This document shows, in pieces, positions 3 to 7,792 of a DNA stretch of 64,000 nucleotides (position 1 is the stretch's first letter; each line of letters opens with the position of its first letter). This DNA is from Brevibacillus sp. (lineage in GTDB: Bacteria > Bacillota > Bacilli > Brevibacillales > Brevibacillaceae), in the NCBI GenBank assembly GCA_017656235.1, contig JACDOF010000004.1:1-64000 (forward strand), read 5' to 3'. The notes under the pieces are model-generated. The model made no database searches. It was not told the origin of the DNA and saw only the letters and a list, made by a program, of their open reading frames with translations. The position numbers and the translations under genes were made by a program.

Positions 3-1343
3 ATGGGCATCCGGCCAGAAGTGGCGTATGCGCAGGCTGCGAAGGAGACAGCATTCGGACGATTCGGCGGCGTGGTGACACGCGATCACCACAACTGGTG
101 CGGGCTGAAAACGACACAAGGCGGCAGCAACAGCGATCCTTACGCCCACGCAAAATTCCCGGATGATGAAGTGGGGGTACTGGCTCACCTACAGCATTTG
201 GCCCTGTACGCGGGCGTGGAAGTCACGGGGCGTATCGTAGACCCCCGGCACTTCTCGTCCATCGAAGGGACGGCCCCGACAGTGGAAGCGTTGGGCGGCA
301 AGTGGGCACCGGCGGCAGACTATGGCCAGTCGATTGTACGGGACTATTTGGCCGGGCTTCTCAGCACCAAAGTATCCACACCGCCTGTGGATAGACCTGT
401 GGAACATTGGGCGCAGAAGGACCATGATGAACTGAGGGCGGCCGGATACCTCCTGGATGATCACACCGGAACATTGGATGAGCCAGCATCGAAAGGAATC
501 GTTTTCGCGTTGGCCAATCGGCTCCGAAAAGAGATAGAGAATCGACCGCCAGCCGAGCCAGAGCAACCACAGGAGCCAACAGAGCCGCAGGAACCAGAAG
601 AACCGGAACAGCCGACCGATCCTGAGCCGGAACCTGAACAGCCGCAAAACTACCCTCCGTGCTATCTTGGGATTCCAGGCGTTCCGTGCATTCGCGAAGA
701 TGGAACAATCGATTGGAAGGGCCAAGAGCCTGCGCCGGGATATGAAGAACCTGGGCCTCAACCACAGCCCGATCTTCCCACCTGGGAAGAGACGATTGAG
801 CGTGTGAAAGATGCTGCGGTCATGGTGTGGGGAACTGGATACGGCAGTGGTTTCGTCTATCGAGGGAAATACGTCATCACTGCGCGGCACAACATCGACG
901 AATCAGATCGTCAGGACGAGCACCCAGGTTTCTTCGACAACATCCGAGTTTGGTTCAGAGACGGACGAAGGGACGGAAAAGCGAAGTTAGTGGGCGTGCA
1001 CCCAGAGGCTGATCTTGCGGTGTACGAGCTGACCAACTACACAGATGAGCCGTCGCTTCCGCTCTATGAAGGGCCGTTACAGATCGGTATGGAGATCGGT
1101 GTCGTCGGCCATCAGCAGGGGATTGACTGGGCCGACAAGCGAGGTATGATCACCGAACTATCATCGGAATATCGTCCGTGGGCTTTCCGCCATGTGACGG
1201 AACCAGATACCGAGAAAGGGAACAGTGGCGGCCCCGTGTTCGATCAGTGGGGAAATGTATGCGGCATCCACATCGGCTACGGCGGCTGCGCAACGAACTT
1301 GACGTTGTTCCGGGACTGGATTGCCGAACGTGCTACCCGATGA
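3..1343 (+). CDS. Phage lysin-like glucosaminidase / trypsin-fold fusion (5' end may be missing)
   Basis: Residues 1 to about 80 resemble an endo-beta-N-acetylglucosaminidase domain of phage lysins and autolysins, which cleaves peptidoglycan glycan strands. Residues about 130-175 look like the short helical module often attached to such lysins. A Pro/Glu-rich linker (about 180-265) follows, then a trypsin-fold domain. The domain has the expected triad: His in ITARHN (about 296), Asp in EADLAVYEL (about 337) and Ser in GNSGGP (about 407). A reading start exists at base 3, but the window edge hides the region upstream, so the protein may be longer and the glucosaminidase domain incomplete. The gene is followed by a terminator and then by the recombinase. 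A lysin carrying an intact serine-protease domain is unusual; the protease substrate is unknown. Confidence 0.7.
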   Translation: MGIRPEVAYAQAAKETAFGRFGGVVTRDHHNWCGLKTTQGGSNSDPYAHAKFPDDEVGVLAHLQHLALYAGVEVTGRIVDPRHFSSIEGTAPTVEALGGKWAPAADYGQSIVRDYLAGLLSTKVSTPPVDRPVEHWAQKDHDELRAAGYLLDDHTGTLDEPASKGIVFALANRLRKEIENRPPAEPEQPQEPTEPQEPEEPEQPTDPEPEPEQPQNYPPCYLGIPGVPCIREDGTIDWKGQEPAPGYEEPGPQPQPDLPTWEETIERVKDAAVMVWGTGYGSGFVYRGKYVITARHNIDESDRQDEHPGFFDNIRVWFRDGRRDGKAKLVGVHPEADLAVYELTNYTDEPSLPLYEGPLQIGMEIGVVGHQQGIDWADKRGMITELSSEYRPWAFRHVTEPDTEKGNSGGPVFDQWGNVCGIHIGYGGCATNLTLFRDWIAERATR

Positions 1344-1467: not shown

Positions 1468-2958
1468 ATGGGAAAGGACTATGCAGTATATGTGCGGGTC
1501 TCAACGGACAAAGACGAACAAGTATCCTCTATAGAGAACCAGATCGACATTTGCAGGAACTGGTTAGAACGTAATGGTTTTGAGTGGGATGAAAATTGTG
1601 TCTATAAAGATGAAGGAATAAGCGGAACGATCTTTTTAGATCGTCCTGCAATCCAGTTAATCCTGGAGAAGGCAAAGAAGAAAGAAATCAAAATGGCCGT
1701 GTTCAAGTCGATCTCCCGCCTTGCCCGCGACCTGAAAGACTCTCTGGAGATTCGGGAGGTTCTTCTTGCCCACGGCGTTCGTATTATCTCCGTAGAGGAA
1801 GGGTACGACTCCAACAAAGCCGGTAAAAACGATATGTCGTTCGAACTGTGGTCTATGTTCTCGGCGCAATACAGCCGGACGATCAGTGCGGGTGTGTCGG
1901 CGTCCCTGGCTGCCAAAGTTCGACGCGGCGAACATATAGGCAAAACACCATACGGCTACAATAAAGTAGGCGGAAAACTGGTCATAGACGAGGACGAGGC
2001 CAAGGTAGTTCGGATGATCTTCACCTGGTACAACCAGGGATGGGGATACAAGAGGATCGCCAACGAATTAAATCGAATGGGAATCCCCTCGAAAACCTCC
2101 GCTGTCTGGCAGTACACATCGATACATAGGATTATCCATAATCCTCTGTACTGCGGCGACTTTGTGTTCAACCAGTATAATACGGTAAAAATCGGCGGGA
2201 AAAAGAAGCAGATACGAAACCCACACGAACAGTGGATCATCTTCCGTGATCACCACCCTTGCATCATCAGCCGTGAAGAGTGGAGCAGGGCAAACAATCA
2301 GGACAAGAAGAAGTCACGCAAAAAGGCATCGCTATGGAACGAGTTCCGAGGAATAGCCGTTTGTGGGGTATGCGGATCAAACATGGTGGTTCACACTTCG
2401 GGGAATAAAAGAACAAGCGGAGAATACAGCCGTTGGAGCTACCTGAAGTGCAGTCAGTATCGACGGGCTGGCCTGGCCGGATGTGTGAATCATGCGCCGA
2501 TACGCTACGAAGAATTCAGAGAACTGGTGATAGGTCGTCTATTGGAAGAAGGACAGAGCGTATCGCTCAACTTCACAAGCGACTTTGAGAAGCGTAGAAA
2601 CGAGGAACTTGCTCAGGTCAAGAAACAATTGAATCAGGCGCAGACCAAGAAAAAAGGGCTTCTCGATTTATACTTGGATCACCTGATCGACAAGGCTGAG
2701 TTTGAAGAAAAGCGGTTTGAGCTTGACGCTGTGATCCAGCAGTGTGAAGACCGTATCTTCCTTTTAGAAAACCAAGCCTATACAGAATCCAATGTTAGAA
2801 CAATTGCAGAGGCGTTCAACGCTTTAGAGGATCAAAACCAAGACCTCTACATCACATTCAAAAAGCTCATCAAACAGTTAGTCGTCCATCCAGACGGAGT
2901 GATCGACTTCGAATATACATTCCAGGCACAACCTGTTTCCTCCATTGGTACACATTAG
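1468..2958 (+). CDS. Large serine recombinase (prophage integrase)
   Basis: A 496-residue site-specific recombinase that integrates and excises the element by a serine-linked double-strand break. The N-terminal resolvase domain carries the catalytic serine in YVRVST (Ser12) and the conserved SRLARD arginines. A recombinase domain follows, then a zinc ribbon (CGVCG near 299, further cysteines near 327-340) and a coiled coil (about 375-440). The length is typical of large serine integrases such as SpoIVCA of skin and SprA of SPbeta. GGGAGG precedes the ATG by about 10 bases. The stop codon (2956-2958) lies within sequence that also encodes the C-terminus of GerE, so the last residues are probably specified by the host side of the junction. 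A separate recombination directionality factor is not visible here. Confidence 0.93.
   Translation: MGKDYAVYVRVSTDKDEQVSSIENQIDICRNWLERNGFEWDENCVYKDEGISGTIFLDRPAIQLILEKAKKKEIKMAVFKSISRLARDLKDSLEIREVLLAHGVRIISVEEGYDSNKAGKNDMSFELWSMFSAQYSRTISAGVSASLAAKVRRGEHIGKTPYGYNKVGGKLVIDEDEAKVVRMIFTWYNQGWGYKRIANELNRMGIPSKTSAVWQYTSIHRIIHNPLYCGDFVFNQYNTVKIGGKKKQIRNPHEQWIIFRDHHPCIISREEWSRANNQDKKKSRKKASLWNEFRGIAVCGVCGSNMVVHTSGNKRTSGEYSRWSYLKCSQYRRAGLAGCVNHAPIRYEEFRELVIGRLLEEGQSVSLNFTSDFEKRRNEELAQVKKQLNQAQTKKKGLLDLYLDHLIDKAEFEEKRFELDAVIQQCEDRIFLLENQAYTESNVRTIAEAFNALEDQNQDLYITFKKLIKQLVVHPDGVIDFEYTFQAQPVSSIGTH
2944..2953. other. Probable attachment site (attR) junction in gerE
   Basis: GerE-like coding begins at CAC 2951-2953 and cannot be followed further left: the codons before it read Pro-Leu-Val rather than the Val-Arg-Asn expected in GerE. 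The crossover should be at or just before this point. Serine integrases usually use a 2-base core; the exact core cannot be fixed without the left end of the element. Confidence 0.65.
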
Positions 2959-3040
2959 AAATGTGATGCAAAAACTCGGGGTTAAAGGCCGGTCTCAGGC
3001 GGTAGTCGAACTAGTTCGACTTGGACAATTAAAAATTTGA
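2951..3040 (+). pseudogene. gerE: 3' fragment of gerE, late mother-cell regulator, split by the prophage
   Basis: Twenty-nine codons and a stop encode HIRNVMQKL-GVKGRSQAVVEL-VRLGQLKI. B. subtilis GerE ends with HISNAMQKL-GVKGRSQAVVEL-LRMGELEL, the same length from the His onward and identical through QKLGVKGRSQAVVEL. GerE is a small LuxR-type DNA-binding protein made under sigma-K that switches on late coat genes. The break falls in the second helix of the helix-turn-helix, so neither half could bind DNA. The location, upstream of racE/murI and gerM, agrees with the B. subtilis gene order. The 5' part of gerE should lie beyond the left end of the prophage. The gene may be restored by excision rather than dead. 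Confidence 0.88.
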
Positions 3041-3055
3041 GCCGTGTCCACCCAC

Positions 3056-3097
3056 CCTCCCTGCTCCTTTCCAGAGGAAGGGAGGTTTTTGTTTTTT
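3056..3097 (+). terminator. Intrinsic terminator of gerE
   Basis: CCTCCCT (3056-3062) pairs with AGGGAGG (3079-3085), extended by TCCT/AGGA, and is followed by a T-rich run. It is retained downstream of the split gene and lies between convergent genes. Confidence 0.85.
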
Positions 3098-3099
3098 CA

Positions 3100-3906
3100 T
3101 CAGCGGCTGCCGGCCAGGTCCTCGAGGGTGTACTTTACTTCTGAAAAATTGCGAATAATCATCTCTTCGCGTATGCGGTTGCCAGTCCGTTTGTCGATGA
3201 CCAACCGCCATATCTCGTTTTCGCGGTAGTTTTTTCCCGCCTGCTGCAAAAAACGGTGATTTCGTTCCTGGATGTGATAAGAGAACGGCCATTCTCGTTC
3301 GCTGCAGACTGCCCCTTTCAGGTGTTTGTCGGTCAGCCAGACCCTGAACTGAAACACCTGATCGGTCGGATTGAAAAAGCGCAGGTCAATAAAGTTGTAA
3401 AAGACGCTGGCCCCGCTGCCAAAGGGCAGTACCCGCTGATCGTCAGGAAAGGGGTCAAACTGGTGATGATGGCGCTCCACGACCGTAAGCGGTGTATGCA
3501 ATGCCATCCAGTACAGCAGATTGGCCAGTTGACAAATCCCGCCGCCGATCCCGGTGATCACTTCTCCCTGGGATAGCAGCAGCCCCTCGATGTAGCCTTT
3601 TTGTCTGGTCGTTTTGCCGACCATTTTCCAAAACGAAAAGGTTTCGCCGGGGCGAATCAGAATGCCGTCAATGGCGAGCCGGGCGATGCGAAGGTTGCAG
3701 ATTTTGTTTTCCTGCAGTTGGGGGTCGGTTGCCCCCAGCCTTCGATGCAAGAGCGACTGGTGCTTCTTTATCGTATAAGGGAGATTGTCAGGCTGTCGCT
3801 CTCTGGCGAAGCGCGTCCGCTGAACCAGATCGCGCAAGTGTCGAAAACTTCGCCGTTGAAATATTCGAGCGTGGTAGAAAAACGGATGAATCTTCGACAG
3901 TTGCAC
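3100..3906 (-). CDS. VanW family protein
   Basis: A 268-residue protein with the VanW core: the block PGETFSFWKMVG near residue 88, the block GIGGGICQLANLLY near 116 and the HHHQFDPFP block near 144. VanW occurs in some vancomycin-resistance clusters and widely in Bacilli and Clostridia. Its biochemical role is not established, and its presence does not imply resistance: no vanA/B, vanH or vanX is here. The start is GTG, with GAGGAG about 10 bases upstream. No signal peptide is evident. It faces the split gerE and shares the intergenic terminator region. Confidence 0.85.
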   Translation of the reverse strand: MQLSKIHPFFYHARIFQRRSFRHLRDLVQRTRFARERQPDNLPYTIKKHQSLLHRRLGATDPQLQENKICNLRIARLAIDGILIRPGETFSFWKMVGKTTRQKGYIEGLLLSQGEVITGIGGGICQLANLLYWMALHTPLTVVERHHHQFDPFPDDQRVLPFGSGASVFYNFIDLRFFNPTDQVFQFRVWLTDKHLKGAVCSEREWPFSYHIQERNHRFLQQAGKNYRENEIWRLVIDKRTGNRIREEMIIRNFSEVKYTLEDLAGSR

Positions 3907-4028
3907 AGCACTCCACTCCTCGCGAGAAAATGAATGGATAAGGGCAGGTAGGTCTCAACCTATGTGCGTATAGGGCTGGGGACCCGGATTATGGGAGAGG
4001 CAAACTTGGGCAATTGATTCAAAAATAA

Positions 4029-4057
4029 TCGAAATTTCATGTTCATTGTGGTAGAAT
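4029..4057 (+). promoter_or_regulatory. Promoter for the antitoxin RNA
   Basis: TCGAAA, a 17-base spacer and TAGAAT preceded by TGG (extended -10) give a plausible sigma-A promoter pointing toward the 3' end of the small toxin gene. Confidence 0.55.
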
Positions 4058-4063
4058 CGTTTC

Positions 4064-4253
4064 TGTGATGTATCTTGATCCGTACCAAAATGGTTATGAA
4101 CAGCAGCATCAGGGTATACACATAGTAAAGACCGACAGGTGCTGCACCACCTGACGGCCCTGTACAATAGTCGTTCCACCGGACGGGGCGGCTCGCATGT
4201 GCAGGCAAGGTGACCTCCCTGCTCCGTCAAGCAACAAGGGAGGTCACTTTTTT
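4064..4253 (+). ncRNA. Candidate antisense antitoxin RNA (RatA/SR-like)
   Basis: A transcript of about 190 bases is predicted between the promoter at 4029-4057 and a strong terminator at 4210-4255. It has no convincing coding frame. Its 3' part is complementary to the end of the toxin mRNA running on the other strand; the predicted overlap is about 120 bases. This is the arrangement of txpA/ratA and bsrG/SR4 in B. subtilis. The RNA is inferred from sequence signals only. This also accounts for the 337-base gap between vanW and the toxin gene. Confidence 0.5.
4132..4157 (-). terminator. Possible terminator of the toxin mRNA
   Basis: On the minus strand CCGTCAGGTG pairs with CACCTGTCGG around a 6-base loop, followed by the weak tail TCTTTACT. 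It would end a toxin transcript of about 250 bases. Confidence 0.45.
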
Positions 4254-4255
4254 TT
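4210..4255 (+). terminator. Strong intrinsic terminator of the antisense RNA
   Basis: An 11-base perfect stem, GTGACCTCCCT (4210-4220) with AGGGAGGTCAC (4237-4247), is followed by eight T on the + strand. It overlaps the toxin stop codon. Confidence 0.8.
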
Positions 4256-4324
4256 GGCTGAGAACAGGAGTACGATCAGTGTGCCAAATGCGAACATCAG
4301 ACTAAATGCCTCGTACACTGTCAT
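4244..4324 (-). CDS. Small hydrophobic type I toxin (BsrG/TxpA/holin-like toxin family)
   Basis: A 26-residue peptide begins MTVYEAFSLMFAFGTLIVLL and ends in FSAKKK. The MTVYE start, single hydrophobic segment and lysine-rich tail match the short membrane toxins of Bacilli: B. subtilis BsrG begins MTVYESL and ends QKKK. An excellent ribosome site, GGGGGTGA, lies 5 bases before the ATG. An extended -10 promoter lies about 70 bases upstream. Such peptides act at the cell membrane and are controlled by an antisense RNA, for which signals are present on the other strand. At 26 residues it is shorter than BsrG (38), TxpA (59) and BsrE (30). Confidence 0.75.
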   Translation of the reverse strand: MTVYEAFSLMFAFGTLIVLLFSAKKK

Positions 4325-4395
4325 GGCTTCACCCCCTTTCATGCGGGGATGAGCCGACTCTGTCCTCAAGGAGCCGAGTCTATTGTACATGGTAA

Positions 4396-4404
4396 ATTAT
4401 AGCA
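4396..4404 (-). promoter_or_regulatory. Extended -10 promoter of the toxin gene
   Basis: Reading the minus strand, TGC-TATAAT is a perfect extended -10. Transcription would start near 4389 and leave a leader of about 65 bases. Confidence 0.65.
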
Positions 4405-4537
4405 CGATTAACAGTTTCGTTACATCCCGCAGGACAAGAAAAATGTTTCACAAACTCCGTTAAAAGGAGAAAACGTGAAACGCCGCACGAAAAAGGGGAT
4501 GCGGCTAACAGCATGATATCAAGAATTCAAAGGGACA

Positions 4538-4583
4538 GAAAAACACTCCGCTACGTGCGCTGCGTCGAATGCGGAGTGTTTCT
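4538..4583 (-). terminator. Terminator of the superoxide dismutase gene
   Basis: AAACACTCCGC (4541-4551) pairs with GCGGAGTGTTT (4571-4581). On the minus strand the hairpin runs into a T-run. Confidence 0.8.
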
Positions 4584-4590
4584 TCGTTCT

Positions 4591-5544
4591 TTAAAAGGGC
4601 TGCCAGCGCAATCTGCGCGCCTGCAAATAGCGATCCTGCACGTGCGGCCAGTTGACCACATTCCACCAGGCATCGATGTATTCACCCCGTCTGTTCTGAT
4701 ACTTGAGAAAATAAGCGTGCTCCCACACGTCCAGGACGAGCAGGGGAATGCTCTCCCATTGTGTCAGGTTTTGATGTTTTTCCCCTTGAAGGATCGTCGT
4801 TCGTTGGGCGCGCGGAGACCAGACCAGGAGGGCCCAACCGCCACCTTCCACTTTCTCGGCGGCCATGGAGAAGTGGCGCTTGAACGAATCAAACGAACCA
4901 AAGTCACGGATGATCTGTTCGGCCAGCTCCCCGTTCGGCCCCCCTCCCCCATCGGGGCTCATCACCTGCCAATAAATCGTGTGCAGGTAGTGACCGGCTC
5001 CATGAAACGCCGCTTCCCGCTCCCAGTGTTTGAGCAGCTCAAAGTCGTTGGCTGCTCGAGCCTGCTCCAGCATTTTCTCTGCTTTGTTCAATCCTTCCAC
5101 GTAGTTGCGGTGCAGAATATCATGATGAATCCGGGTCGTTTCAGCATCCAGGTAGGGTTCCAGCGCATCGTAAGCGTACGGGAGGGGCGGCAGGCTGTGT
5201 TCGCCGATCGGGACAGGCCGGTTGATCGGCACAGGTTGACGGATGGAACTGCTCGCTGTAACGAGCTGATGCCGGGGTTCCGTCAGCTTATCTTTGATCT
5301 GCCTTAGAAAGTGATGAAAATGTCGTTGTATCTCTTCCGCCTTTTTCGTCAGGCGAAGGATTTCTTGTTCGTTTTCATTCTTTTTCAAGAGCGTCTTTGC
5401 TCTGCGGCCGATGTCGGCAAATGCGCCGGAAAACTGCGCCAAATCGCGTTCGTAGTGCTCGCTTTCAGGCTTTTTGCGCAGATACTCGACCCACTGATTC
5501 CCCCACTGACTCCAGTCGATCAACTGCCTTATGGTTTGTTTCAA
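4591..5544 (-). CDS. sodF: Fe/Mn superoxide dismutase with N-terminal extension (SodF-like)
   Basis: Residues about 118-317 form a complete Fe/Mn superoxide dismutase, which converts superoxide to hydrogen peroxide and oxygen. The start PLPYAYDALEPYLD is typical. The four metal ligands are present: His140 (IHHDILH), His188 (YLHTIYW), Asp272 and His276 (DVWEHAYF). Residues 1-115 are an added, mainly helical, charged segment that may form a coiled coil, followed by a proline-rich linker; B. subtilis SodF has a comparable extension. No signal peptide is seen. The gene is transcribed alone, away from murI, with its own terminator. Metal choice cannot be decided by eye. Confidence 0.92.
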   Translation of the reverse strand: MKQTIRQLIDWSQWGNQWVEYLRKKPESEHYERDLAQFSGAFADIGRRAKTLLKKNENEQEILRLTKKAEEIQRHFHHFLRQIKDKLTEPRHQLVTASSSIRQPVPINRPVPIGEHSLPPLPYAYDALEPYLDAETTRIHHDILHRNYVEGLNKAEKMLEQARAANDFELLKHWEREAAFHGAGHYLHTIYWQVMSPDGGGGPNGELAEQIIRDFGSFDSFKRHFSMAAEKVEGGGWALLVWSPRAQRTTILQGEKHQNLTQWESIPLLVLDVWEHAYFLKYQNRRGEYIDAWWNVVNWPHVQDRYLQARRLRWQPF

Positions 5545-5772: not shown

Positions 5773-6606
5773 ATGGGGAAACAGCAAGCAATCGGTATCA
5801 TCGACTCGGGTGTCGGCGGGTTAACCGTGGCACGTGAGGTGATTCGCCAGTTGCCGCGGGAGCAGATCGTCTATTTTGGTGATAACGCCAGGTGTCCTTA
5901 CGGTTCACGGTCTGTCGAGGAAATCCGCATGTTTACCAACCAGATGGTTCAGTTTGTCCAGTGCTATCCGATAAAGGCGCTGGTCATCGCCTGCAACACG
6001 GCGGCAGCCGTGGTTTTGGAAGAGGTGCGGGAGCAAACCGCCGTTCCGGTGATCGGTGTGATCGAACCGGGAGCGAGAGCGGCGATTTCTGCCTCACGCA
6101 TGGGCAGAATCGGTATTATCGGGACGGAGACGACGATTCGGGTAGGGGCCTATCAACGGGTGCTGCATCGGCTGAAACCAGATTTGTACACGGTAGGGAT
6201 GGCCTGCCCGTCGTTCGTCCCGCTTGTGGAGAGCGGGATGTATCATGCACCGGAAGCGCGCCGCATTGTGGAGGAAACGATTGCTCCGCTTGTTCACGAG
6301 GAATTGGATACGCTGATCCTGGGATGTACTCATTATCCCCTGTTGGCGCCGCTGATTGAACAGGTGATCGGCGGCGAGGTTACGCTGATCAGTTCGGCGG
6401 AGGAGACGGCCCGCGAGCTGAGTGCCCTGCTGTCGCTGCACGATTTGCACGCGGAGGATACGACAGAGAAGCCCAAACACCGCTTTTTTACCAGCGGTGA
6501 TGAGCAAATCTTCCGGCAGATTGGGGAAGAATGGCTGGGCTTTGCCATTGACGTGGAGGCGAAGTCACTGGAGGAGATCGTTCCCGCAGCCTCATCGAAC
6601 TGGTAA
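5773..6606 (+). CDS. murI: Glutamate racemase
   Basis: Interconverts L- and D-glutamate in the cytoplasm, supplying D-Glu for peptidoglycan (and for poly-gamma-glutamate where made). The 277-residue protein has the family signatures GIIDSGVGGLTVA at the N-terminus, ACNTA with the first catalytic cysteine (about residue 76) and GCTHYPLL with the second (about 187). Full length. GGAG lies 8-12 bases before the ATG at 5773; the ATG four bases earlier is out of frame. In B. subtilis this gene (racE) follows gerE and precedes gerM, as here once the insertions are discounted. Confidence 0.96.
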   Translation: MGKQQAIGIIDSGVGGLTVAREVIRQLPREQIVYFGDNARCPYGSRSVEEIRMFTNQMVQFVQCYPIKALVIACNTAAAVVLEEVREQTAVPVIGVIEPGARAAISASRMGRIGIIGTETTIRVGAYQRVLHRLKPDLYTVGMACPSFVPLVESGMYHAPEARRIVEETIAPLVHEELDTLILGCTHYPLLAPLIEQVIGGEVTLISSAEETARELSALLSLHDLHAEDTTEKPKHRFFTSGDEQIFRQIGEEWLGFAIDVEAKSLEEIVPAASSNW

Positions 6607-6718
6607 CGGCCGGCGGCCAGCGGGGATAAGCGCTCTTTTCTTTTTGGACAGATACGCATAAACCCAAGCCCTGCTCGTATACATGGTAGTACAAAGTGTG
6701 TCGAGGAGGATGGGAATA

Positions 6719-7792
6719 ATGGAATTACGGCGCATCGGTATCATGACGGCCGCGTTGGGAATCAGTGCCGTTTTGCTGACAGGTTGCGGATTGTTTGGCC
6801 CGAAAGAGGAGACAAACACCAGTATAGATCCACCACCGCTGACGGAAGACGCAGGGGGTGAATGGGACGCTGGTGAGAGTGGGACGCTTGATCCTGATGC
6901 GTCACCGTCCGACGAGCCCGCAGCAGTACAGACTGTCAACCGGACGGTTTATCTCTTCGATCCCAACGGATATGTGGTGCCGGTCACTCTGCCCCTGCCC
7001 AAAACAGAAGGCGTGGCCAAACAGGTACTGACCTACATGGTCAAAGGGGGACCGGTGGAAGAACTGCTGCCGCCGGGGTTTTCCGCCATTCTGCCCGAGA
7101 AAACCAGCGTGCTCGGGGCAAAAATTGTGGATGGCACGGCGACCATTGACTTTTCACCGCACTTCACCAAGTACAATCCTGAGCAGGAAGTGGCCATTCT
7201 GCAGGCGATCACCAAAGCGCTCACCTCATTCGATTCCGTAAAGAACGTGGCCATCTGGGTAAACGGTGTACCGCTGTCGGAAATGCCGGTCAACAAAACG
7301 CCGATCAATACGCTGGAGCAGACGAGCGGAATCAATCTGGAGCTGGCTCCTGGAGCCATGCCGGGTCGGACCACCGCCGTAACCGTCTATTTCCAGGGAC
7401 AGCTTGACGAGGAGCACACCTATTACGTACCCGTGACGCGGCTGATTCCGGAGACGGACGAGGTGGCGCGGGCGGTCGTCGAGGAGTTGATCAGGGGGCC
7501 AAAAGAAGGGGCGCCGCTGTTCAGTTCGCTGCTGGGTACGACGGAGGTGATCGGCGTTGAGGAGAAAGGGGATACGGTAGTAGTCAATTTGAGCGGCGAT
7601 GTGCTTAAGTACAACAACGGCAGAGAGGCCAATCCGGAAGCAATACAATCTCTGGTGCTGTCGCTTGCCGAGAACACCGGGGCCGACAAAGTGCAGGTGA
7701 TGGTGGAAGGCAAACCGCTCGCTGCCGCAGGTTCGCTCGATGTGAGCAAACCTGTATCGCGCCCACTGGAGATCAACTCGTTTGCGTTTTGA
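6719..7792 (+). CDS. gerM: Spore germination/sporulation lipoprotein GerM
   Basis: A lipoprotein with two GerM domains, needed in B. subtilis for normal septal peptidoglycan during engulfment and for germination. A lipobox, LLTGC, follows a hydrophobic segment near residue 20. A Pro/Asp-rich spacer follows, then the two domains (about 75-190 and 210-345), each beginning with a VYF/VYL-type strand and a long KGG or RGP stretch. I chose ATG 6719 because GAGGAGG lies 10 bases upstream; the in-frame ATG at 6710 is too close to it. A sigma-E-like pair (GCATAAA at 6656, TATACAT ending 6684) lies just upstream, which would fit the known sigma-E control, but the match is weak. Confidence 0.9.
   Translation: MELRRIGIMTAALGISAVLLTGCGLFGPKEETNTSIDPPPLTEDAGGEWDAGESGTLDPDASPSDEPAAVQTVNRTVYLFDPNGYVVPVTLPLPKTEGVAKQVLTYMVKGGPVEELLPPGFSAILPEKTSVLGAKIVDGTATIDFSPHFTKYNPEQEVAILQAITKALTSFDSVKNVAIWVNGVPLSEMPVNKTPINTLEQTSGINLELAPGAMPGRTTAVTVYFQGQLDEEHTYYVPVTRLIPETDEVARAVVEELIRGPKEGAPLFSSLLGTTEVIGVEEKGDTVVVNLSGDVLKYNNGREANPEAIQSLVLSLAENTGADKVQVMVEGKPLAAAGSLDVSKPVSRPLEINSFAF

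Follow-up and report, generated by a model that had tools for sequence, protein, structure and literature searches.

The skin element splits sigK, a gene for a mother-cell transcription factor, and is removed from that terminal cell by the SpoIVCA recombinase. In a comparable arrangement the prophage SPbeta lies in spsM and relies on the SprA recombinase together with SprB, a 58-aa recombination directionality factor (RDF); the sporulation promoter of SprB has a good sigma-E/K -10 element and a poor -35 element, for which help from SpoIIID has been suggested (PMC4191935). In gerE itself, experiments have shown that GirC and the 42-aa RDF GirX excise the gin element of B. cereus midway through sporulation, and the discussion of that work mentions as untested a gerE prophage in Bacillus glycinifermentans (BGLY), whose integrase is reported to be 52% identical to GirC (PMC5595907).

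The element analyzed here, from a Brevibacillus genome (hereafter the source genome, G000), is of a kind already known from gin, the prophages in gerE, skin and SPbeta: like these and vfbin, it lies inside a mother-cell gene that is otherwise absent, has a core shared by its two ends and carries a large serine recombinase. Like gin of Bacillus cereus ATCC 10987, it splits gerE and pairs a serine recombinase with a small candidate RDF, and the crossover we predict is at the diadenine in the Ile-Ser-Asn stretch that was predicted as the gin crossover (PMC5595907). Unlike gin, which is 28.6 kb in length, has no phage genes and carries three serine recombinases, it is a prophage and has both early and lysis genes of a phage. 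Its recombinase is about 29% identical to the group B recombinases delineated below, a group that probably includes GirC. It shares with the B. glycinifermentans prophage and the Paenibacillus larvae phage Xeni_IDv2 (PMC12453123) the presence of a temperate phage in gerE; the integrases of both probably belong to group B, because the related phage Lily falls in that group on the tree and the B. glycinifermentans enzyme is close to GirC. SPbeta is likewise a prophage in a mother-cell gene with a serine recombinase at one end and a small RDF, but its target gene differs and its recombinase is only about 26-28% identical to that of the source element, whereas skin shares the same kind of mother-cell target in a different gene. 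Caldibacillus phage CBP1 (MF595878) has a 54% identical integrase and a homologue of the RDF candidate preceded by a version of the same upstream box; its record extends no further than the stop codon of the integrase, with attP outside it. What we did not find described in open-licence papers are the recombinase/RDF family itself, its breadth, the series of element sizes, the shared box and the recurrent use of a single codon as target by distinct recombinase groups.

The split gerE and its prophage

The window, that is the entire 64,000-nucleotide stretch under analysis, corresponds to contig C4 of the source assembly from base 1, and the contig starts inside the prophage. The original prediction, that a prophage splits gerE and that the recombinase frame runs into the GerE C-terminus, is confirmed: the frame is intact and ends within a GerE-like stretch at 2951-3040, which encodes HIRNVMQKLGVKGRSQAVVELVRLGQLKI followed by the stop codon. 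This stretch is 76% identical to residues 45-73 of B. subtilis GerE with an E value of 2e-8 in a search of the whole genome, values which argue against a chance resemblance. All 29 codons from 2951 had been attributed to gerE; while their GerE-like reading stands, the host start at 2951 does not, as codons 2951-2959 (HIR) form part of a phage attachment-site arm imitating gerE. Host sequence in the window accordingly begins at 2960, and the rejoined gene receives HIS from its left half.

The 5' half, which had been expected next to the left end of the prophage, was recovered at G000:C8:143934-144085, 7 kb from the end of contig C8, where it ends just past EKTVRN beside the prophage early genes. 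When the halves are joined at the AATGTGATGCA common to both, the result is, as anticipated, an in-frame and open gerE of 76 codons, which aligns across the joint without a break to the uninterrupted gerE of congeners lacking the element (G001, 96.3% over 410 nt; G002, 93.5% over 433 nt). The gene is intact in 35 of the 35 other genomes searched from the same genus and family. The expectation that the source genome would have no second complete gerE was borne out by a genome-wide search, in which the GerE-like matches other than the two halves are at most 51% identical and lie within larger open frames. No attB contig occurs in the source assembly, which represents the integrated form alone.

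The left junction reads AATCACATAAGC-AATGTGATGCA-TACC and the right junction GGTACACATTAGA-AATGTGATGCA-AAAAC, such that a short core is shared by both ends of the element and its exact removal leaves an open, conserved gerE frame. The crossover is predicted to fall at the AA at 2960-2961, the first two bases of an Asn codon that corresponds to Asn49 in B. subtilis numbering.

On the host side, the terminator proposed to follow gerE corresponds to a terminator-like inverted repeat with a T run, and rph comes after gerM. The proposed order of gerE, murI and gerM is also seen, but two minus-strand genes, one of the VanW family and one superoxide-dismutase-like, are interposed between gerE and murI (window 3100-5544), an arrangement that is not known from B. 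subtilis. The genes murI and gerM were assigned by recognizing their sequences rather than by family search.

On the phage side, the left end comprises, in order, a short terminator-like repeat and genes for a 266-aa protein of unknown function, HTH regulators, a repressor-like and a Cro-like protein, followed by a 48-aa gene (the RDF candidate), an antirepressor and Gam-like and Erf-like genes; at the right end the endolysin-protease fusion is followed by the integrase. This distribution of a lysogeny and early module at the left and of endolysin and integrase at the right corresponds to the organization of a temperate phage. A search for the central part of the prophage did not locate it: the end of C8 matches none of the contig ends compared, and C4 and C14 have their first 55 nt in common, but C14 bears the endolysin of another prophage. 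That gene, with which C14 begins, is a paralogue of the endolysin-protease fusion with about 80% DNA identity, its first 55 nt being identical. The sole portal gene found in the source genome is on C10, apparently in another prophage. The assembled parts of the element, the middle being unassembled, contain a single recombinase, which presumably catalyzes both integration into gerE and excision from it. A second recombinase of the same family elsewhere in the genome (G000:C6:121545-122991; L111, 2534-3992, minus strand) is frameshifted, with 84% identity in its N-terminal and 66% in its C-terminal part, and lies next to an array of CRISPR-like repeats and a cas2-like gene; its surroundings contain no gerE sequence.

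Table 1. Positions of the features of the split gerE locus (window coordinates unless a contig is named)
Feature	Position	Strand	Basis or remark
Endolysin (glucosaminidase-like) fused to a trypsin-like protease domain; prophage lysis region	3..1343	+	PHROG endolysin 2.7e-28, protease 7.6e-13; Pfam Trypsin_2 8.9e-17
Large serine recombinase / phage integrase, 496 aa	1468..2958	+	Pfam Resolvase, Recombinase, Zn_ribbon_recom; PHROG integrase 1.4e-124
attR	2941..2970	+	Phage arm TCCATTGGTACACATTAG into core AATGTGATGCA (2960-2970); compared with attL on C8 and 18 other elements
gerE 3' part (host)	2960..3040	+	Codon 51 to stop; 5' part on contig C8, outside the window
Terminator-like inverted repeat with T run, 3' of gerE	3055..3092	+	Read by eye
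murI (glutamate racemase), host	5773..6606	+	ORF; conserved order
gerM, host	6683..7792	+	ORF; conserved order
RDF candidate of the source genome, 48 aa	C8:146619-146765 (L010 13620-13766)		Outside the window

A recombinase family in gerE across Bacilli

In a sample of 400 genomes of the class Bacilli, members of the recombinase family, 45-68% identical to the source recombinase, were found in 18 other genomes. All 18 have a split gerE, 17 of them with no intact copy, and in every case the crossover maps to the same AA of the Asn codon, between phage arms with the pattern TTGCAAAAGGTAC and its reverse. The 3' part of gerE also follows the recombinase in Cytobacillus firmus NBRC 15306, Neobacillus niacini MER531 and Thermoflavimicrobium daqui; the 18 genomes cover at least 12 genera, and the recombinase/RDF family as a whole spans at least 13. 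Beyond the class, a phylum-wide sample of 399 yielded no member. The exceptions to the association with gerE are the broken second copy in the source genome and a few viral contigs from IMG/VR (L042-L049) with recombinases that are 46-49% identical. In the three with flanking sequence (L047-L049) no gerE follows the recombinase over the length read, which suggests a switch of target in one sub-branch of the family. A stop noted in the recombinase of G335 proved to be its normal C-terminal stop. A search around G351, presumed to be close to B. cereus, turned up three genomes, all with gerE intact.

The elements, measured as the distance between the gerE halves, range from about 5 kb (G386 and G395) through 8-25 kb up to 40-52 kb. 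Those of about 5 kb have no recognized phage gene besides the recombinase, which is under strong purifying selection: between the two, dS is 0.81 and dN 0.057, a ratio of 0.07, with other close pairs giving 0.02-0.11. That remnants of this kind still hold a functional recombinase is most readily accounted for if gerE has to be rebuilt. As for their other contents, the 5-kb element of G386 (L128) encodes a PrnB-like protein and the undecaprenyl pyrophosphate phosphatase BacA, and the 40-kb element of G168 (L185) displays no recognizable phage proteins among the large frames tested. In G134 a single recombinase is followed by two gerE 3' parts (G134:C40:70916-71005 and 83683-83766; L143) separated by 12.7 kb, which would fit either the gain of an extra copy by one element or the accumulation of two insertions.

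A candidate directionality factor and its upstream box

A small protein of about 45-60 aa with the consensus KKxxLxxGKETYGxKxIxxAFxEAxxPYF is encoded by 20 of the 20 elements that were read far enough. Among 50,697 phage records a homologue was detected in only one, that of CBP1, and no Pfam or NCBIfam model matched the protein over the cut-off. Its gene is in the early region of full prophages and directly before the recombinase in several small elements, the smallest of which retain a frame of 60-63 aa ending on the recombinase start; the only genes that six complete elements of 5.1-16.8 kb all have in common are this one and that of the recombinase. Its position, size, conservation and universal pairing with the integrase, much as GirX and SprB accompany their respective integrases, suggest that it is probably the RDF of the family. 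In the G297 element (L116 1485-1652) the frame has an internal TAA although gerE is split; this host may be unable to rejoin the gene, or the stop may be a sequencing error.

In most elements the candidate RDF gene (hereafter the RDF gene) is preceded by a conserved box, GTMCANYTGTCCANNNNGCATA, whose CATA lies 24-44 nt, mostly 24-30 nt, before the start codon. With up to two mismatches allowed, the box occurs solely before RDF genes in 626 kb searched on two strands. It was defined on the same sequences on which it was scored, and the three-sequence pattern was then tried on the rest; this three-element pattern is found before the RDF gene in most of the other elements, the frequency in random stretches being about 0.01 or less. 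The version in the source genome, GTCCACCCGTCCAACCCACATA, has two mismatches and is among the weaker matches. Scans with generic sigma-E, sigma-K and sigma-A consensus sequences gave nothing significant upstream of the recombinase; upstream of the RDF gene they returned a weakly significant sigma-E match and missed the conserved box. We propose, with moderate confidence, that the box, with CATA as the -10 element, functions as a mother-cell promoter; the good -10 and poor -35 elements of the SprB promoter offer a parallel. The box also includes a CTGTCC block, the reverse of which, TGGACAG, resembles a SpoIIID consensus. An exact SpoIIID site in this block was considered and set aside as a lead only, as it fits some elements only and the copy in the source genome is weak.

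Proposed developmental excision from gerE and its alternatives

The G255 assembly offers direct evidence of precise excision. Its contig C6 (41.3 kb) has attL at its start and attR at its end, contig C1 ends exactly at the core, and contig C25 has 169 exactly matching bases in common with the end of C1 and continues through an intact, rejoined gerE. The occurrence of attL, attR and the rejoined gene in one assembly means that the sequenced DNA included the integrated as well as the precisely excised form.

We consider it likely that the source element is a temperate phage integrated in gerE by its large serine recombinase, and that excision in the mother cell at the stage of sporulation rejoins the gene. 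The phage would have inserted at the AA of the Asn codon by means of its own recombinase, leaving gerE in two pieces; the mother cell would then make the small RDF encoded on C8, and this would turn the recombinase to excision. The element would leave as a circle, and gerE would be rejoined for the final stage of coat formation. As the mother cell dies, the spore would keep the prophage. Developmental excision is supported as an interpretation, and we infer its mother-cell timing in the source strain.

An ordinary temperate prophage, for which gerE is a convenient attachment site, would instead excise upon induction, and the spores of the lysogen would be gerE-deficient. The left end of the source element, with its repressor, Cro-like protein, antirepressor, Gam and Erf, is indeed a typical lysogeny and early module, and its right end has an endolysin. 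Moreover, the genes of the G255 element include those for capsid, tape measure, tail tip and amidase; given these structural and lysis genes its excised form may be induced phage, and could stem from ordinary prophage induction or from a cured subpopulation. The phage in P. larvae gerE was also reported without a test of developmental excision (PMC12453123). Induction alone, however, cannot explain why tiny elements without recognized phage genes keep the recombinase and the RDF candidate under purifying selection, nor does it sit well with the persistence of the box before the RDF gene in them, and we view this alternative as unlikely. These same features, along with the excised form in G255, favor a reversible excision that restores gerE.

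It is more doubtful still that the element is stuck, for instance by damage in the middle of the prophage, with gerE permanently broken in the source strain. Such an outcome might be sought in the unassembled middle, and the stop in the G297 RDF frame points in the same direction, but the source genome has an intact recombinase and RDF candidate, intact attL and attR sites and two intact gerE halves, making this reading quite improbable. The location of the gerE halves on different contigs of a draft assembly could even raise the suspicion of chimeric, artefactual phage-gerE junctions; as both junctions are kilobases from contig ends, share the core and recur in 18 other genomes and the three named strains, we give this hardly any credence.

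If gerE-restoring excision is indeed the function retained, the implications extend beyond this locus. Developmental gene splitting by phages has hitherto been known from scattered cases, whereas one family devoted to gerE, extending from full prophages to 5-kb remnants, would be a record of a phage becoming a controlled part of host development. It further predicts, in a testable form, that the mother-cell transcription machinery of the host reads the phage RDF gene, and offers a family of candidate RDFs, along with numerous natural pairs of att sites, that would be usable for directional recombination.

The same codon is also cut by other recombinases. About 20 further genomes of the same sample have gerE cut there without a recombinase of the source type, and, where the sequence was read, six of these have recombinases 28-32% identical to that of the source beside the gerE 3' part. 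These recombinases constitute two groups, B and C, on their own branch of the tree together with P. larvae phage Lily, the source type being group A. The gene is split in about 39 of the 269 gerE-bearing genomes sampled, a count that comes from an uneven sample and in which the second set was recognized partly by the criterion of a 5' half. We see an even chance that Asn49 of gerE is a recurrent docking site in Bacilli, at which groups A, B and C all cut the same AA. Under such a scenario, group A phages, including CBP1, would already carry a mother-cell-timed promoter before the RDF gene. They would enter as lysogens that do the host no harm and restore gerE when it sporulates, and would subsequently be reduced to minimal elements of recombinase and RDF. 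Separately, four relatives from the same taxonomic family, G017 (C39), G027 (C1), G029 (C1) and G033 (C39) (L124-L127), combine an intact gerE with one or two additional copies, complete or partial, within 1-11 kb; these might be leftovers of earlier insertions.
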